64,000 nt of DNA. Origin: Glutinoglossum americanum. Lineage: Eukaryota > Ascomycota > Geoglossomycetes > Geoglossales > Geoglossaceae. This document shows, in pieces, positions 8,247-38,019 of the stretch. The notes beneath the pieces were generated by a model. That model ran no database searches. It had not been told where the DNA came from and worked only from the letters and a program-made list of their open reading frames with translations. Each line of letters starts with the position of its first letter. Position 1 is the stretch's first letter. The DNA is taken from the NCBI GenBank assembly GCA_020080175.1, contig JAGHQL010000085.1, positions 1 to 64,000 on the forward strand, in the 5' to 3' direction. The translations under genes and the position numbers were made by a program.

Positions 8247-11200
8247 ATGGGAAGTTCGGGTTTGACAGCGCAGGCTCTCAAGCCGAACCTCCAGTTCAAT
8301 TGGCTAGTACAGGATTTTGATACTTGCGCACTGGAACTTTAGCTAACTCTTTCCCCTAGGGTGTTTCTGATTGAGCTGTTGGTTTGCGGTGTTCTGTACG
8401 TCTTTAATCTTCCCAGCACTAGTGACATAAGGAACTAAACTCTGCTTTTAAGGACGCTGTTCTTCCTCTTCTACTTCAATCGCCTGTTTGCAACCTTGGT
8501 CTCATACGGTATCCGTGCATATACTTGGCATCGCTACCGTGTTTGGATTGATATCCAGGCCCTCCAAATCTCACTTCTCGGTGGGAGGGTGTTTTTCAAA
8601 GGCTTCAGGTACCACGGCGACAACGAGACTATTTTAGTACATGGTGGCTATATCACCTGGCGGTACTGGCTTCGCAAGGTAAGGGTTGCGGAATGCAGAT
8701 CCGAGAGGAGGACTCGAGAACATAATCCGGACGGGAATGTTCAGGTGGGGGGGCGAAACTTCAGTGGTGGGGAGAAGGGTGGCTTAAAAGGACCTAATGA
8801 GCTACCTTGCCGGATTGCCGTCTCACTCCAAGGGCTCGAGTGGTTTGTGTATAATCGGAGTGCGGCATACGACTACATCAGGGCTAACCTGCTAAGCGCG
8901 GACATCGATGATCAGGATGTTGGAGCCGATACTATAGGGTCTGGAGGAGCTGGTGCTGCGGTGGATGTCTCTCTACATCTTGGAGAAGTCTCGACAGAGG
9001 GAGTTGAAGCCCACTCCCACTCGTCGTTGAGACATGAAAAATCCGACTCTACAAACCGTCCCCACCAAATTAATTCTTATGCAAGCGACAAGCCTACTAA
9101 ATCATTTGAAGGTAGCGAAATACCTACACGCAGAGCGGACGGCATAGGCGCTGCTGCACCGTCTTCGCCCCTGACCATTGGCAGCAGTGAGGATGGCAAC
9201 AGCGTACCGGGCGAGAATACCCGAATGGACTCCATTCTATTAAATACACTTCCCATACATATCGAATGTAATAAAGGCGCAGTCGTGATGGGTAACGGGA
9301 ATACTAAATGCATCTTGGTCACGAAATTCGAAAAGGCGACTGGAGAGATTGACGCTGGCCACGCTCGTCATGTGGACAAGTACAAGCAGCTCTTCAACTT
9401 TAATTTTTCGCGGCCCGTTGTACAATTAAAACCAAATCCAGATTACGTGGAACCCCAAATATCTCGGGCAGTTCGAGCAGAGAAATCTTCACAGGATGCT
9501 CCCTCCATTGTGGATGGAAGTCGTCAGCGTCGGTTTTACCAAATTGACAGGCGAAAACTCTGGCGCAAGGTCGAGCAGCTGATGACATCTTCCCGCAGCC
9601 CTGAGGAATTATCATCTACAAGTACCACACGGAATGCTTCGGCTCACTCAACACGGCCGTTTGTACCTCTCGAAGCAAACCGCTGGCTTGGCTTGTCGAG
9701 ATACTTAGATGATGGTCAGCAAGGCGAACATGATGAGTGGGGACCCATTGAGTACGCTACATTTCCGACAGTTTTGGACTGCCCTAGCGCTAGAATGAGT
9801 TTCTATTGGGACGTCCCTGGGCTAGTACCTCGGCCGCCTGCGGTACGCCGTACTCTGCCACCAGGAGCTACCGAGGACATCAATAGAGGTATCCCACCTG
9901 AGTGGGGCATCGATCTTGCTTTCCAAGGGGGAACTATTTACTACGGGCCCTGGACTGATCGGCAACGAGCACATCTTCAGAGCATATTCTTCCCAAGACT
10001 CTATAAGGATTCTAGACCTGCTAGAAAACTCGAGCCGGGTGAAACAAGAGTCAGTACCGTCTTCAAACTATTCGTCGAGTTAGAGGGACAGATTATCTTG
10101 CGAATACCCACCAAGGAAGAATCAAAAGACTGGAAATGGAAAGGCAGGAGTCGGACTGTTGGAGGCATCGACCCCTCGAAACGACGGAAAGAGAAGAAAC
10201 CGAAAGGGAAAACGAATGATAAAGGCGCGCCTGGCCCAGGCGCTCGCCCATTTGGCTGGTTAGACTTCAAGGTGATGGCCAACTCGACCGTCAGTTACTC
10301 GATGGATATGGTTGCCGGCGGCTCTGGATATACAAATAAACTGGTCCTTGACCTCCGGGGATCGGAACTCTCAACTAGCGTCAATCACGGAATGTTGTGG
10401 AAGAGTGAGCACCAGACGATCTCGTGTGATCTATCCAACCCGCTGGAGTGGAATGGCCTGCATACGTGGAAATTTGAAGTTTTCAGCCGAGGCCTCGAGC
10501 TCTTTCCCCTTAGGGAACACATATTCTTGTTCACTGATCTTATCAATGATTGGGGCTCGGGACCACCTCAAAACTATTACGCCTTCACGCCATATAGATA
10601 CATCGCTACCCTCAGATTCTGCGGCTTCAAGATTAACCTGAACGTCAATGACTCTAACATCGTCAACAATCCATCAGACTTAGATGACAACACGTTTATC
10701 ATATTACACGGCTCGGATCTAAGTGGTGACCTCTCTATCCCTCTTGACAAGTATCGGCCAACGCAAAATGAAATCCCCTTTAAGGTCACCGCACACAAGC
10801 TCCGTGTCAGCCTCCATACGCCCCCCTGGAATACCCAAGCAACATTCTTGGATTCAGCAAAGATGGCAGAAGTCAAGGATGGGACCGTGAGTGGACGGTA
10901 TAATTATTACACTTCTACATCAGCCAGTAACACAGACACACTTTTATTGGACGTTCAAGGCTCCCGGGTATCGATTGACCTTTACGGATTCTTAATCCGC
11001 TATCTCATGAAGCTTAGAGAGAACTACTTTGGTGAAAATATCCACTTCAAAACGCTGGAAGAGTTCCAGGATCTTGTCGCAAAAAGGCGGACTGCTTTGT
11101 CCATCCCAGACGCACAGGTTGGGCATCACAAAAAAACCAACGATCTCGATGTCATCCTTAGCATTCAGGCTGAAGAAGTCAGCGTTCTTCTGCCTGCTAA

Positions 11201-14200
11201 CCTTTACTCATCAAAAGCGAATGTTCGGCTTTATATGGCTTGTCTTAGTGTAGACCTAAGATTTACGAACTACTACATGGATCTCAGAGTCACCTTCAGC
11301 CCCCTTACCGTCTCTCTTGGTGGCTGCGAGGATGACGAAGCCACGCCCGGATTTGATGCATCTCAAACCCAACTGTTTGTGGATGGTGTCAATTTGTACG
11401 GCCACCGACTCTTCGGTCTGCCGCCAACTGAGCCTACTTATGTCTGCAATTGGGACTTTGACATTGGGTCGGTGACAGGAGAATGCTCGACCGACTTTTT
11501 TAGGGCTCTTACACTTGCGCTAAGGGTATTCATTTTTACATTTGATGACGACGAAAATGCTCTGCATCTAGCTCTCCTCAATGCCCTGCATGATGTTACA
11601 TTTTTGAGGGCCAACACACAGCAGATAAGAGTATGGCTTCATGTTGAAGAAACAGCTTTTCTCCTTGACGTTGGGTCCATCAAAGCCCAGTTCGATGACT
11701 TGGCAACAACTAACCATTCCGACCTATTGGCTCTCAATATTCAAGATCTAACGCTTGCCTGTGTTGATGGAGAATCTGCATCTCGTCACAGGTCTCAGCC
11801 CCTTACCGCCGTAAAGACGCATGGATTCCTACAAACGACAATTCTCCTTACAATGATACAGCGCAAGTTCGGGCTTAGCAAACGCCGCGATTTACAGCAA
11901 AAATATGTCAAATACCATGATCAACGAACAGGCAGGGCGGGGTTCCTTATCCACCGCGATCCCATGGATGACGCGGCGAGTGAAATCACCCAGCAGGCTG
12001 AGATTGACCGACCTGCCATGCCCTTTCCGCCTATGCCGGAGCCCCTCCTAGACGGAAGACTACCTACTCACGACAACTTTTCTTATCGTTCAGAAGCCTC
12101 AACCCACTCAGCGGATCGCTCCGTAAGCCGTAAGAGCTCTTTCTTATCACAAGGTGCTTCTAGTATTGCTAGTGAAGGCAGTGTTGTGAAAAGGTCGAGT
12201 TCTTACCATTCGGCCCCGGAATCAGCTTCAAATCTTTGGCGCCATAGGGAACTCTCAATGACAAGGATAGCGAATCCACCACAGACGAAAATTGCATCTG
12301 GCTCAGCGAGTGGACAACCTCCCCTTCGTGGTGTCGATCCTCCGAACCCGGAACACCACAAAATACCGTCACCGCCGAGCGTCACGTTCTCTAGTACCTT
12401 TATCGCTCCATACTTCCCGCTCCTGAAGGTTCAGCCTGATCTAAGAGATGTCCCCATTTTTTCAGTGCCCACCGGAGACGGGGACTCCCTAGATCAGGAT
12501 GCCGGCCAGTACCGTGACTTACCATCTCCAGAATTTGATGAGAATGTCGTGCAGACGAGCTTCCTAGTTAACTTCAAGTCCGGCATCAGAGGGTACTGCA
12601 ATCCTGAGACATTACGGTCAGTTATGAGGCTTTTGGGACACTTGCAACCCAAAAGCCCAGTTGACATTCTTGACGACCTCCAGCTCGACGTCATGTCAAA
12701 GATCGTAGGTCTCGCAAAAGGGAAAGTAAGATCTGGCAAGACAATCGACTTCAGCGTTAAGATACCGTGCTCGCATATCCGATTCAGCAATCTTAGTTCA
12801 ATGAAAGACAGTCATGCATCGCAACATAGGAATGACCAGTACGACCTCACTATGGCCCAATCCACAATAAACGCAAGATCCCAATTACTCACCAAGGGTA
12901 AGGGTGCTAATGAGGGTGGCAACCAGTTTTATTCCATACACCTACTGTTAGAATCTCTGTGTCTGTCAGCAAAGGACAGCTTAGAGAACGGCAGCCCTGC
13001 CGTCCAAGTCCAGGTTAAGGAGCTCATCTTCTGGACCGTCTCTAAGGAGACTACCACCACCAGTTTGAACGTCAAAATGATTGAGGGGGTGGTTGATAGC
13101 AAGTCGTTGGAGTACATCGCGACATTGATCTATCGTACAGAATTGCTTGTCCGCGAGCTAGCCGAGTCATCTTCGAGATTAGGCCAAGCACAAAGGAAAC
13201 GGCTGCAATCCTTGATCTTTAACTTGGCTTCCGCTGGCAAAAGAGTACCCGACCCGTCGTTCCTGACAAGACCGAGTTATGTCCTCCGTTCTGCACCGGA
13301 TCATCTAAGGTTAGATGATTCTTGGAAGATTATCTCTCGGTTTCGCCACATGTATAGAAGTCTTCCTGATACTATGCGAAACGAATTTTCATTGCAGTGC
13401 CTCAGTAATTCGACTCAGTGTCCCGAGGATGCTCAACACATCGTCATATCGAGTTTAGATCAGTGGAGAAGCTGGGAGCTAGCCAACGTGAGGGAAAGCT
13501 ACGCCATTCAGAGGATCTACGATGCGCCAGAAGACGACTTTCACACGTCAAGCCCCAGTGGGAGGCCTTTGAAAGCCTCCTTGGTAGCCAGGTCACTGAA
13601 ACTCGCGGCTGGTCCTGGGCCAAAACAAAACGAAGTTTCTTTGGACGGCGTGATTGTGGGTGTTGGATCGGATATTCCTGAAACACCCCCTACTGATGAT
13701 CCAAATCAAATACCTCCCGGAGCTCGAACAACTACTATTCAGATACATTCCCGCAAGATTGGAGTACACTTTAACTGGGAACTCTGTGAGCTGGCCGAGG
13801 AAGTTCTTGAGCTCTATGATAACAGAGAACGGGAATTGGCTCTACAGCCTTCCAAACCCTCTCCTCTAGAAACCGGCCCTGCTGTTGGTCGCCATTACCA
13901 TCTCATCATGAGCACGGATGCGGGGTTAACTACCATCGACTGTATCAACTTGAAAGCTATTTCTCTAGCTAAGAATCTAAGGCTATCTCTAGTTGGTGCA
14001 GAGAGCTCAAGTGGTAGTAGATTCGTTTCTGCTCTTTTGCACGCAGATACTGCTAGCTCTGGAATCTTCAGCCACTCCCGCCAGTTGCTCAAAGTAAAGC
14101 TTCAAAGGCCTAGCTTACATCTTGCTCTCGATGTCCAAACGGTAGAGCGAGGTTCTATCCATGCCTGGAAACTTGCCGCCAACTGCGAGGATCTTAGTTT

Positions 14201-17200
14201 TGAGCTGCGCGAGGAAATAGTTGACCTTATTGGGGTCGTGGATTTAATCCTTGGTGACGAAGTTACCCAAATTCTTCGTCTAATAAGGGGCCGCCAAACT
14301 ACACATGGGCAGCCAATTCTATCTACGGCAGCACACCAGGAATCTGTGCACAAAATAAGCGTAGGGTTCCTCTTGGATGCCTTCGAAATCAGCTTCGCTC
14401 TTCTTCATTCTTTAGAATACGTTTGCTTGGGCACTGTTGCTCGGACATCGATAGCAACGGGACAAGATTCTGAGTTAGTGTTTAACTTCGATCTCAAAGA
14501 GCACCGCCACGAGGTCCGTGCGGTAAACGATGGAAACTCTGAGAGCATATCTGTTCTTAACATGCCGTTTGTCAACGGCCGCATCAGACAGGCCACGGGA
14601 GAGGAGCAATTTTTCCAAATTTTCGTGGCGATTGAGAGTATTGCCTTCGATGGAGCAGCTGTTCACGGACTACTAAATGCTCTTAGGAGGCCAGAAGTTG
14701 CAAATACAATAAATGATGCGCGAGCCGAGATACTGGCCGTAACCAAACATTTTGAGAATACGTTTGGAATGCCAGACGAGCCGCAACTTCTAGAGGCTCT
14801 ACCTTCGACACCGTTGGTTTATGATGCTCACATCATAATTGCGGGTCTAGGTATTCGCGAGAGTGCTCCAGAAGCTGACCTTGATATGAGCTTTGGCTGC
14901 ATTCAGATGAATGCTGCCAATAGACCACCACAAAATGGCCCTACCTTTGAGTTCCCTGAAATACACATCGGCTTTCAACACATCGTCTTCGAGCTTTTGC
15001 GTTCCAGCGGAGACGGCCACCAATCCTGTGGCAACCTTGCATTCGGCGCCCAAGTCAGTTTGTCATCGAAACGAAATACAACAGGAAATATTGTCCCAGC
15101 AATTCACATAAAGAGTGATAGTTTGGAGATTAACCTGTTTGCCGAAACTGCCTCCACGATTGTCGCAGTCATATCCCATCTCCAGAGCAGGATCAAGAGA
15201 CTCGACTTCTCGGAGGAAGTGAAAGTCTTACGGACTAGACTACGCCGTTCTAGACCACAAATCGCCATCTCCGATGCGGATCTTGGTGAACAAGTCTCGA
15301 GCACGAAAACTGAAGATGCGGTCGGCTTAATCTACTCTCTCGAGATGCTTAATATACAGATCAGCTGGATTGTAGGCAACTCCACTGCTTTTACATACGA
15401 TAGGGAAATAGAAGATCTCGTCTTGTCATTTAACAGGATAGAGCTAGCAATAAAAAAGGAGAACGCAGCACGTCTAATGATCGAAGATTTCCAGCTACAA
15501 ATGGTTCCATCCTCCCGCCCCGGCAAGAGGACAGAACGCTCACTAAACTCTGCACTGCTCCCTGAGGTTGTGTTCAACGTCGCACATTTCTCAACGAAAC
15601 AAGACCGCAGACTTGCATTCCAGGCAAAGGGCAAGTGCCTCGATCTCCGTCTAACGTCGCAGTTCATCCTCCCTGCGAGCCATCTTGAGAGATCAATAGC
15701 TACAGCGAGTAAGAAATTCCGTGCTGCCTCGGCCACTTGGGAGAAGTCGATGCCGACTCAAACGGGGTTCGAGAGGAGCAGCCTATTCAGCAGCAAAAAA
15801 CTTGCCTCCCTCCTCGTTGATGCCGATTTTGCAGGAGCTGTTGTTTATGTCCAAGGGAGACGAATTAGAGATCCTCAATCCGCTACCAGTGCAAGTCATA
15901 TGGCCAAACTCCCACAGCAAGGGCGTTACGGGCAGTTCACTCAGGGCGAGACAAGCACCAGCAATACAACCTTACGTGCGCCAGGTGTGGCTTGTAAAGT
16001 CGAATACACGGACAACGGGAAGGACGACCCGTCCCTCAATGCAGAGATCAAGGTTGACGCATCATCCAACGTCATTTACCCGACCGTAGTTCCTTTATTG
16101 ATGGAAATGTCCTCAAGCGTAAAGGATATTGTTCGGGAGGATGACCAAAGCAAGAAGCCTATCGCGGCCAAGCCATCAACTCAAAAATTCCTGGACGAAG
16201 ACACACTTCTCACCGCCGATCCATCAGCAATTCTCGGGCGCTGCAAACTCAATGTAGGTTTACGTATCTGCAGACAGGAGTTTAGTCTGAGTTGCCAACC
16301 GGTTGCACGGGTGGCAGCTACGGCTCGAATTGAAGATCTGTACATCACTGTCAATACTGTCAAATCCGCTGATCACGGACACTTTTTCTCCATCTCAGCT
16401 GCTTTTACCCATTTTGAGGCGTCCGTTCAACACGTTTATTCTCGAGAGTCTACCGGAAGTTTTGACATTGAGTCCATAGTTTTATCTCTCATGAACAGCA
16501 AACACGTTAGCGGGACAAGTGGGATATCCGCAATTCTAAAGGTTAGCCCAATGAGAGCACAGATCAACGCAAAACAGCTCCAGGACTTTTTACTCTTCCG
16601 AGATATTTGGGTGCCCACAGAAATCCGTCAATCGTCATCTGCGCCTATTGTAACTCCGTCCTCATTAGAATCACCCGGCTTCTCCGTGCAACGATATCAG
16701 CAAGTTGCCGCAGTAGGAGCTTTTCCGTGGAATGCAACTATAGCTATTGCTGAACTGGATGTTCAACTGGACCTAGGCCAGTCATTGGGCAAATCCGCTT
16801 TCATCATATCCGACTTCTGGGTATGCTTAAAGAAAACCTCAGACTGGGAGCAGAGCTTATGCCTTGGCTTTAGCAAGACTGCAGTCTCTAGCACAGGGAG
16901 AATGAGTGGATTTGTCGAACTTCAGGACTTCAAAGTTCGCACGTCAATACAATGGCCGTCAAGGGAGATGGCGTTGAACCAAACGCCACTAATCCAGGCC
17001 TCCGTTAGCTTCGGGAAGCTACACTCCAAGACTTCTTTCGAATACCAGGCTTTCCTGATTGCTGATATCACATCGTTTGGATTCATGATGTACAATGTGC
17101 GAGACGGCCCTACGGCTAGCGGCGACCGCCTCGTGGCCAGTCTCGATGGGGACAAGGTACAAGTCTTCTTCACTACAAATAGCGCAGCTCAAGGATACGC

Positions 17201-18167
17201 CCTCTATCAAGCACTCCTTAGGCTAGCACAGGAAAAGAAAACTGCATACGATCTATCACTGAAAGAGATCGAGAAGTTCTTGAAACGAAAATCCATTGGT
17301 AATACGTTAATGACCCAGTCTCAAGAACTTGTCGAGGCCAAGCGAGAGGATACAGCTCCGTTTTCTCTACACACTGACGTGGTGGTAACTCTCAAAGCCC
17401 TCAATGTTGGTGCTTTCCCAAGCACCTTCTTTGACTCTCAACTCTTCAAGATTGAAGCCTCAGATGCAGAAGCCCGCTTCGCCGTAACGATGGATGGCAG
17501 CAAGATTCACAGCGGTCTTAGCATGACCCTTGGACAGTTGCGGATATCGTTGTCAGGAGTGAGGCGGCCCGACCAACCACAGACGCCTGGAGAAGTCTCG
17601 GTAGATGACGTAGTGGCCAGCGCCACCGACTCACGCGGCGGTACCATCCTACAGGTCCCAAAAGTGGTGGCAACGATGCAAACATGGCAGACACCTGGAT
17701 CTAGTAAGATCGACTACATCTTCCGGAGCTCCTTCGAGGGCAAAGTTGATGTCGGCTGGAACTACAACCGAATTCAATACATCCGTACCATGTGGGCAAA
17801 CCACAGCCGCACCCTAAGCCAGCGCCTTGGCAAAACCCTCTCCCAAACCACCCTAACCATCACCGGCGGCCCGCAACCCGAACTAGCTGAAGACGGCAGC
17901 AGCAAGACTTCACACGAGCAGCAACAAGAGAAAATCACCGCTTTCGTCAACGTTCCGCAGTCACGATACGACTACACCGCACTGGAATCTCCTGTTATCG
18001 AGGCGCCTCAACTAAGGGATATGGGCGAGGCGACGCCGCCATTAGAGTGGATTGGGTTGCATAGGGATAGGCTGCCAAATCTTACACATCAGATTGTTAT
18101 TGTGTCGTTGTTGGAGGTCGCGAGAGAGGTTGAGGATGCTTACGAGAGGATTTTAGGTTCTTCGTGA
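8247..18167 (+). CDS. csf1: Csf1 / BLTP1-family bridge-like lipid transfer protein
   Basis: A giant 3268-aa protein orthologous to yeast Csf1 and animal BLTP1/Tweek. These form long hydrophobic grooves that carry phospholipid from the ER to other membranes; yeast Csf1 is tied to phosphatidylethanolamine supply for GPI-anchor synthesis. Exons: 8247-8302, 8360-8395 and 8453-18167, so one exon covers 9.7 kb. Residues of about 18-47 (FNWVFLIELLVCG, LFFLFYFNRLFATL) form the N-terminal membrane anchor. It is followed by the hallmark YGIRAYTWHRYRVWIDI, then a block including ISLLGGRVFFKGFRYHG and HGGYITWRYWLRKV. The C-terminus ends LPNLTHQIVIVSLLEVAREV, as in fungal Csf1. The first intron (8303-8359) must use a GC donor to keep the QFNW-VFLIEL reading; the second (8396-8452) is GT-AG. 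Start: the first ATG that joins in frame to the anchor. Confidence 0.95.
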
Positions 18168-36436: not shown

Positions 36437-36443
36437 GGGAGGA

Positions 36444-36455
36444 TGGCCGAGTTGG
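36444..36455 (+). promoter_or_regulatory. Pol III A box
   Basis: TGGCCGAGTTGG in the D arm, an exact match to the TRGYNNARNNGG consensus. Confidence 0.85.
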
Positions 36456-36467
36456 TTATGGCGCCAG

Positions 36468-36514
36468 GTAATTCAACCGTTTGTTCGCCTATGAATTTGA
36501 CTAACCCGAAGCAG
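36468..36514 (+). other. Spliceosomal-type intron inside the tRNA-Leu anticodon stem
   Basis: A 47-nt segment between bases 30 and 31 of the tRNA. It begins GTAATT, has the branch-like TGACTAAC and ends GCAG ten bases later. It sits at an AG|GT site. The five bases CAGGT occur at both edges. Nearly all mRNA introns of this window share this design and length. Its removal restores a standard Leu anticodon arm. Spliceosomal removal from a pol III transcript is inferred, not shown. Confidence 0.65.
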
Positions 36515-36521
36515 GTTAAGG

Positions 36522-36536
36522 TTACCTTAGCACAAT
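36522..36536 (+). other. Canonical tRNA intron at position 37/38
   Basis: A 15-nt segment one base 3' of the anticodon, the standard site for tRNA-splicing endonuclease. It contains CCTT, complementary to the AAGG of anticodon plus base 37. Confidence 0.75.
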
Positions 36537-36558
36537 TCCTGGTTCGGAAACGAGCGTG

Positions 36559-36569
36559 GGTTCGAGTCC
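36559..36569 (+). promoter_or_regulatory. Pol III B box
   Basis: GGTTCGAGTCC in the T arm, matching the GGTTCGANNCC consensus. The 47-nt insert widens the A-to-B spacing. Confidence 0.85.
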
Positions 36570-36580
36570 CACTCCTCTCA

Positions 36581-38019
36581 ATATTTTTTTGGCTATCTTT
36601 TGCTTGATAAGCTATAACTGTGCTTTATCGGCTGCTCGAGCCCTTCCGTAAGTCCCGACACTTATTTTTATGCCCCTGCTTCTTTCCCTCTCGTTTTCAG
36701 CCAGATACCGGCCCACCACGTTAGGAATTCGCTGCAGTGATGAATGATGCTCCAGGTCCGGAGGCCATCTTCTCCTAGTGTCTGCGGTCAGCCGCCAATA
36801 TGATTCCCAGGTGATATATAAAATATAGTGGCTTCGAAGTATGTACACGTCGAGGATGACCCGGATCAAACCAAGGTCATTAAGGCAGAACATCCAACCC
36901 ATCCCTTCACGACTAAGCCTCACTGGAACCATATACTGGCTAACAGAACAAACAACCTCACTAGTTTCGCAAATTAATCTGACTGAGAACCACGAATACG
37001 GATAAACTGAATCTACACCTGATCCGCCTTGTCGCAATTCGGTTTAGACGTCAGGCACACCCAAATACAATGGACGCACTGTCGCATCTCCCACAGGCAG
37101 GGCAAGAGACAAGACGAGGAGCCACCGGAAGAGCTATTCGCAACCCACGTAACGCTCATGGAATTATCCATGGCTTTTGGAGAAAGGGCGGGGGGGGGAC
37201 CCGCACCGAGGGCAGACACCAGAGGAAGGTATCTAGCAAAGGGATGGGTTTATCTACTTTACCGGCCTAGGCGACGAAAGAGACACAGGCTCTGCACGCC
37301 GATGGCGCCAGGGGCGGAAGTTTCTAAGTCAGTCCACACGATGCGTATAACCACTACGGGTTCTACCGCACGCATGAAAGAGCGCCAGCGGGAGCGTCTG
37401 TCGGGAATACTACCCAACGAACTAAACGGAAGGATATACAGACAGGTCTTGCGGAGAGCTTACGCTAGTAACACCAACGCCAACACCGTTTCATACAGTC
37501 GCGATGGACCTCACCGCACCACTGCCGAAATGGCACCGGGCAGTCACGGACGATTAGGGAAAAAAAAAAGAGATAGAGAAACGTCGCTGCCGTGATCCTC
37601 GCCTTTCTGCGCACTATCAAGGAAGATATCGAGAATGGGACAGGCCATCCTGCATTTGGCTCATACCCATCGTTCTTTTGAGCGTCGTCGTCGGTGAGTT
37701 TATCACCAAATTTTCAGCCAGAACGGTTTTGACGCGCCTGCAGGAGCGACTCGATAAAAAAAATATACTAGAAAGGCAATCAGGCCAAAGTCGAAATCGT
37801 TGTATTTTATTGAGGTATTCAAGACTAATTATCCCGTTTAATTAATACTACTACGTAACAGCCGATCGCGAGGTTGGCTACGCACGGCGTGCTGGGCCAT
37901 AGATTTCAATTTAATTATCCATTTCCGCCCATTACGTCCCCTGCTATCCTTGCGAATTCAAAGCAAAACGCTCTCTGGTACAGTCATAACCCGAGATTAA
38001 CAACACGTCCCATTTAACA
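36581..38019. other. Intergenic, tRNA to glycogen phosphorylase
   Basis: About 1.4 kb. Apart from the tRNA terminator, no gene could be supported. A 188-codon frame at 37029-37595 (+) has no recognisable domain and odd composition, so it was not called. Confidence 0.5.
36584..36590 (+). terminator. Pol III T-run terminator
   Basis: Seven T residues three bases after the discriminator base of the tRNA-Leu gene. Confidence 0.85.

Follow-up and report, generated by a model that had tools for sequence, protein, structure and literature searches.

Introns of tRNAs and introns of mRNAs are usually treated as separate, each kind with its own enzymes. Spliceosomal introns occur in the nuclear rDNA of some ascomycetes, including lichen fungi, and an mRNA-type intron in fungal 18S rDNA is known from a cited title. 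In S. pombe, U6 is an RNA polymerase III (Pol III) transcript with an mRNA-type intron that is removed by the spliceosome, as described in the accessible text of PMC8917221, and, according to the accessible part of PMC5832005, no small structured RNAs other than U3 and U6 are known to be interrupted often. Non-canonical introns of eukaryotic tRNAs have been described too (PMC4090602), in an article whose accessible text does not contain the string 'spliceosom'. The accessible parts of PMC11782384, PMC12730881 and PMC4494063 hold no case of a spliceosomal intron in a nuclear tRNA gene, and none was found in a literature search by title and start of abstract, most subscription journals being outside its coverage. 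For a tRNA as the host of a spliceosomal intron, and for a single pre-tRNA that is doubly spliced, the literature searched gave no example, in so far as its text was accessible. Here, we report that spliceosomal-type introns interrupt four tRNA genes, and probably a fifth, in Glutinoglossum americanum.

Glutinoglossum americanum is an earth-tongue fungus of the class Geoglossomycetes, and the window is the whole 64,000-nt stretch of its DNA that was analysed. A CSF1-like open frame at positions 8439-18167 of the window is 100% identical over 100% to FGG08_004298, a protein labelled Glutinoglossum americanum, and shows 74-78% identity to four proteins labelled Trichoglossum or Geoglossum. The tRNA-Leu(AAG) gene occupies window positions 36437-36580 (Table 1) and matches the Rfam tRNA model RF00005 at 41.4 bits, the alignment making a long excursion within the anticodon arm. 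As the sequence-only reading had claimed, its anticodon stem is split by a 47-nt insert that starts with GTAATT, ends with CAG and has CAGGT at both flanks. The insert lies between nucleotides 30 and 31, and CTAAC stands 6 nt before the final CAG. The gene is interrupted a second time by an ordinary 15-nt tRNA intron at 37/38. When the insert was excised by script, ARAGORN returned a tRNA-Leu(aag) of 82 bases, folded as a cloverleaf with the 15-nt intron at the usual place, and this second claim of the same reading was borne out as well. With the insert retained, ARAGORN gave a false tRNA-Ile(aat) for the locus, and when no introns were allowed it detected no tRNA across the window.

Table 1. 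Features of the tRNA-Leu(AAG) locus in the window and the other interrupted tRNA genes of the genome
Feature	Location	Strand	Evidence
Exon 1: acceptor 5' strand, D-arm, anticodon-stem nucleotides 27-30	36437..36467	+	sequence, Rfam, ARAGORN
Spliceosomal-type intron, 47 nt, GTAATT...TGACTAAC...CAG, nucleotides 30/31	36468..36514	+	sequence, ARAGORN, splice-signal score
Branch-site-like TGACTAAC	36498..36505	+	sequence, signal score
CAGGT, 5-bp direct repeat, left copy	36465..36469	+	sequence
CAGGT, 5-bp direct repeat, right copy	36512..36516	+	sequence
Exon 2: nucleotide 31 and anticodon loop 32-37; anticodon AAG at 36518-36520	36515..36521	+	sequence, ARAGORN
Ordinary tRNA intron, 15 nt, 37/38	36522..36536	+	ARAGORN
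Exon 3: nucleotide 38, anticodon-stem 3' strand, variable arm, T-arm, acceptor 3' strand, discriminator A	36537..36580	+	sequence, Rfam, ARAGORN
B box GGTTCGAGTCC	36559..36569	+	pattern search
T-run, likely Pol III terminator	36584..36590	+	sequence
tRNA-Leu(UAA), L203; 58-nt insert in the D-stem, 24/25, GTAAGT...TTGACTAAT...CAG	C270	minus	
tRNA-Ile(AAU), L051 and L052, two copies; 51-nt inserts in the anticodon stem, 28/29, GTRAAT...CAACTAAT...TAG	C241		
tRNA-Gln(UUG), L142; 61-nt insert in the D-loop, 15/16	C252:34601-34911	+	

The genome search showed that, beyond Leu(AAG), four further tRNA genes carry GT-AG inserts outside 37/38, at three other positions. The view that the window insert is of spliceosomal type, first put forward for this one locus, is supported and strengthened by these four genes. 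With the tRNA numbering assigned in the present analysis (30/31, 24/25, 28/29 twice and 15/16), none of the five inserts sits at the canonical intron position. The arms outside the inserts are intact in all five genes, and in silico the joined exons gave the expected tRNA with ARAGORN each time. Left unspliced, three of the five received a wrong isotype from ARAGORN (Ile, Pyl and Lys), the Leu(UAA) gene had no tRNA match in Rfam and the Gln gene stayed below the threshold (23.1 bits against a cut-off of 29); tRNA finders can miss or misname such interrupted genes. Three of the interrupted genes also contain an ordinary tRNA intron. The tRNA-Ile(AAU) genes have none at 37/38, and the spliceosomal-type intron is their only one. 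For Gln(UUG), an uninterrupted paralog (L127) lacks the D-loop insert and constitutes an empty site in the same genome.

We looked at the splice signals of the inserts beside those of mRNA introns of the window. Since detection of mRNA introns by codon bias was unproductive (0 and 1 results in two attempts), candidates were obtained by joining open frames, with reversed sequences as controls: 53 were found on the two strands against 12 on the two reversed-sequence controls. After removal of overlaps 27 were left, and 26 were used for the weights, one of 85 nt being dropped; some of these training introns are probably false, as the 12 candidates in the controls indicate, and three are antisense to CSF1. 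The sequence-only reading had described the mRNA introns around the insert as having the same length, branch site and ends. They are indeed alike in signals, but not in length, which ranges from 40 to 73 nt with a median of 53.5.

All five inserts, of 47-61 nt, have a GT..AG register and contain CTAAC or CTAAT 6-14 nt before the final YAG, the distance being 4-18 nt in the mRNA intron candidates. The 5' splice-site consensus of the organism is found in four of them (GTAATT, GTAAGT, GTGAAT and GTAAAT); the 5' site of the Gln insert, GTTGGT, fits poorly (0.9 bits). Splice-signal scores were 18.2 bits for Leu(AAG), 18.0 for Leu(UAA), 15.5 and 15.5 for the Ile pair and 11.8 for Gln, beside 13.7-22.0 bits for the 26 training candidates, whose scores are inflated because the same candidates trained the weights. 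In dinucleotide shuffles the corresponding P values were 0.0001, 0.00015, 0.0008, 0.0012 and 0.010; for the Leu(AAG) insert, tried in 6 registers, 18.2 bits was reached about once in 10,000. With the Ile pair entered as one, the P combined by Fisher's method over four independent inserts is 6e-10. When whole genes were scanned without regard to structure, the best GT..AG window coincided to the base with the structural insert in four of the five cases. In the Gln gene, a better score (16.5 vs 11.8) is obtained for a window that begins 4 nt further upstream, but this window would delete D-arm bases. A chance window above the Gln score of 11.8 was present in 3 of 40 ordinary tRNA genes (Cys 15.5, Gly 13.1 and Thr 12.2), one of the 40 had a window of at least 15.4 (the same Cys gene, which equals the Ile score) and none reached 18, ordinary genes being shorter and offering fewer windows than the interrupted ones. 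Over the 128 kb of both strands of the window, candidates scoring 18 bits or more are present at 61 GT sites, a number that includes real introns. The Gln(UUG) insert is the weakest of the five cases.

The two tRNA-Ile(AAU) copies can be compared with each other and with an mRNA gene. The eL15 gene has two firm introns, and removal of both gives a product of 159 residues, equal in length to 60S ribosomal protein L15 chains and matching them over their whole extent. Its branch sites are CAACTAAT and TACTAAC, the first being the branch octamer of both Ile inserts. The exons of L051 and L052 are identical, and by eye the 60 nt upstream and 40 nt downstream look unrelated. The two introns have 13 differences over 51 positions, 1 among the 16 signal positions and 12 among the 35 others (one-sided P 0.03). 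The sole signal difference is G/A at +3, and both bases are common there in the training introns.

To define the tRNA inventory of the genome, 63 of 786 candidates were scored with the Rfam tRNA model, giving 42 matches; contig 161 is tRNA-dense and probably mitochondrial. The search was extended by A-box, B-box and terminator patterns, and the acceptor, D and T arms of the candidates were scored by script and with Rfam. In total, 40 ordinary nuclear tRNA genes were recovered together with the five that have GT-AG inserts outside 37/38; for 8 of the 40, the isotype was assigned in the present analysis where ARAGORN read otherwise. ARAGORN parsed a short 37/38 intron in 33 of the 40 ordinary genes, and most anticodons found are represented by a single gene. 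All 79 places of GGTTCGANTCC and 48 places of GGTTCGANCCC fall in examined loci or in the window. GGTTCAANYCC has 105 matches, among which 100 were listed and only about 8 are in examined loci, and two other pattern searches listed 100 of 280 and 100 of 107 matches. Genes for His, elongator Met, Val(UAC) and Pro(UGG) were not found in this inventory of a 25.8-Mb assembly; since the inventory is incomplete, copy numbers are worded as 'none found'.

In this sense, pattern searches of the genome found no uninterrupted gene for Leu(AAG), Leu(UAA) or Ile(AAU). An A-box pattern with 9 matches revealed no uninterrupted Leu(UAA) and no second Leu(AAG) with that A box, and the joined Leu(AAG) junction had no match in the genome even when 1 mismatch was allowed. 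For the joined Ile junction, searched with a tolerance of 3 mismatches, there were three matches, two of them the interrupted genes themselves. The third, on C35, is an 18-nt exact match to the joined Ile anticodon arm; it was considered as a copy lacking the intron or as the primer site of a retroelement and rejected, as it is the coding end of eL15, matched by chance. A DNA search with the joined Leu(AAG) gives weak proof of a single copy because it left unreported the Leu(UAG) gene and a relic on contig 290, both of which have 15-17-nt stretches in common with the query; the single-copy point for Leu(AAG) rests on the pattern searches. The relic (L036, minus strand, near 17193-17213) is truncated, Leu-like and without a T-arm, and its 5' half is nearly identical to tRNA-Leu(AAG) but without the 47-nt insert.

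Other tRNA-like loci were seen in the same searches. L062 (C39:32551-32861, 96-222 +) and L076 (C273:9580-9890, 97-222 +) score 38.6 and 42.1 bits with Rfam; they have inserts of about 60 nt in the anticodon arm that are not GT-AG, no convincing anticodon and a common conserved stretch, TGATTTTCTGCTTTCGGAGTTCTGCGATGATACCC. Both were left out of the count of interrupted tRNA genes, as was the truncated L036; the inserts of L062 and L076 speak against a spliceosomal explanation. At L040 (C1:216184-216494, minus), about 100 nt of other sequence lies between a start resembling an A box and an end resembling a T-arm, with 7-bp ends that close and a T-run. L040 has GATGTAGACAGARGGACGTA in common with L209 (C27:57090-57440, minus); this is perhaps a tRNA-derived repeat, with no Rfam tRNA match.

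The inserts might be non-canonical tRNA introns cut by the tRNA splicing endonuclease, GT..CTAAY..AG being coincidental. According to the accessible text of PMC4090602, some eukaryotes do have introns of this sort in the D-arm and the anticodon stem, as described for nucleomorphs and the red alga Cyanidioschyzon, and archaeal introns are known at 30/31. We looked at the junctions for a bulge-helix-bulge, in which two 3-nt bulges enclose a 4-bp helix, with four central pairs and at least two of three outer and inner pairs required, and none of the five inserts forms a complete one in any slip register; the Gln insert, in one slip register, pairs at 4/4 central and 3/3 outer positions, but at 0/3 inner ones. 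Moreover, mRNA-type signals recur in every insert, and in the Ile pair they are kept while the remainder of the intron drifts. We consider removal by the endonuclease unlikely. A group I or II self-splicing intron was rejected, the inserts being too short at 47-61 nt for a catalytic core of well over 100 nt.

Alternatively, the interrupted genes could be dead copies broken by insertions, with other genes supplying these tRNAs. The assembly is in 317 contigs, at least four anticodons that would be expected are missing from its tRNA inventory, the Gln gene has its uninterrupted paralog, and a broken Leu-like relic does exist. Against this, both Ile copies carry the insert between identical exons, uninterrupted genes for the two Leu and the Ile isoacceptors were not found by the pattern searches, and three essential isoacceptors would be missing at once. 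Since all arms are intact as well, dead copies are highly improbable. The sequence-only reading had named several intact Leu(AAG) copies elsewhere as the mark of a dead copy, and the pattern searches found none, only the Leu-like relic. As for origin, the same reading had suggested that an introner-like element landed in the tRNA gene, which would be compatible with spliceosomal removal. The 5-bp CAGGT repeat flanking the window insert fits a member of a recently mobile family, but AGGT is a usual exon context of introns anyway. The end slippage (1 nt in Leu(UAA), 2 nt in Gln and the CAGGT repeat in Leu(AAG)) is inconsistent among the five inserts, from 2 to 6 registers, with 2 in Leu(UAA) and 3 in Gln. 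In addition, a whole-genome DNA search with the window insert and short flanks, of a kind that skips common words, found only itself. For the window insert this origin is left unsupported, and we regard it as very unlikely.

Spliceosomal removal, for which U6 of S. pombe is a precedent, is the reading we prefer: it is very likely, judging from the sequence, that the spliceosome removes the inserts from Pol III pre-tRNAs and that the tRNA endonuclease then removes the 37/38 intron. From the anatomy of the genes, their signals, the in-silico cloverleaf, the recurrence of the inserts and the searches in which Leu(AAG), Leu(UAA) and Ile(AAU) were found in interrupted form only, we infer that Pol III transcribes these genes, that the spliceosome takes out the inserts and that the two steps follow in this order. 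Pol III would produce a pre-tRNA whose anticodon stem cannot form properly with the 47-nt segment inside. The nuclear spliceosome would recognise GTAATT, TGACTAAC and CAG, the segment would leave as a lariat and the stem would be restored, after which tRNA endonuclease and ligase would take out the normal 37/38 intron. This second step is placed after the first because the endonuclease would measure from the finished tRNA body, as the eukaryotic enzyme is thought to do (PMC4090602, accessible text). tRNA-Leu(UAA) and, less surely, one tRNA-Gln(UUG) would follow the same route, and tRNA-Ile(AAU) would lose a spliceosomal intron only, with no 37/38 step. It is also likely, though less so, that maturation of Leu(AAG), Leu(UAA) and Ile(AAU) strictly requires the spliceosome, so that decoding by these tRNAs depends on it; the two Leu precursors would be doubly spliced by unrelated machineries in a fixed order, by the spliceosome first and the endonuclease second. 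If this is true, the supply of essential tRNAs is under the direct control of mRNA splicing, use of the spliceosome by Pol III transcripts extends well past U6, and spliceosome and tRNA endonuclease must act in an order. The interrupted tRNA genes also provide a natural test of the way in which structured RNAs are invaded by introns.

The Gln insert splits the A box of its gene, and the intron's GTTGG keeps an A-box-like TAGTGTAGGTTGG. As a conjecture, these first bases of the insert may stand in for the displaced promoter GG, and the poor 5' splice site would then be due to GTTGG keeping the A box.

Compared with known systems, rDNA introns are, like those described here, of mRNA type and located in a non-coding RNA gene of filamentous ascomycetes. 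The rDNA case differs in that rRNA is made by Pol I from a multi-copy gene and, to our knowledge, has no second splicing system in the same RNA. The introns of fungal U6 snRNA and U3 snoRNA resemble the tRNA inserts in being short GT..branch..AG sequences in small structured non-coding RNAs (PMC8917221 and PMC5832005, accessible text), whereas the hosts here are tRNAs, several genes are hit and three also have an ordinary tRNA intron. The canonical 37/38 intron is itself present in Leu(AAG), with 15 nt, and the 47-nt insert differs from it in place and ends. Finally, tRNA introns of nucleomorphs, Cyanidioschyzon and archaea include, as here, D-arm and anticodon-stem inserts, sometimes together with a 37/38 intron (PMC4090602, accessible text). 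The C. merolae and archaeal introns depend on a bulge-helix-bulge and the tRNA endonuclease, whereas the inserts of G. americanum have no complete motif of this kind and carry mRNA splice signals.
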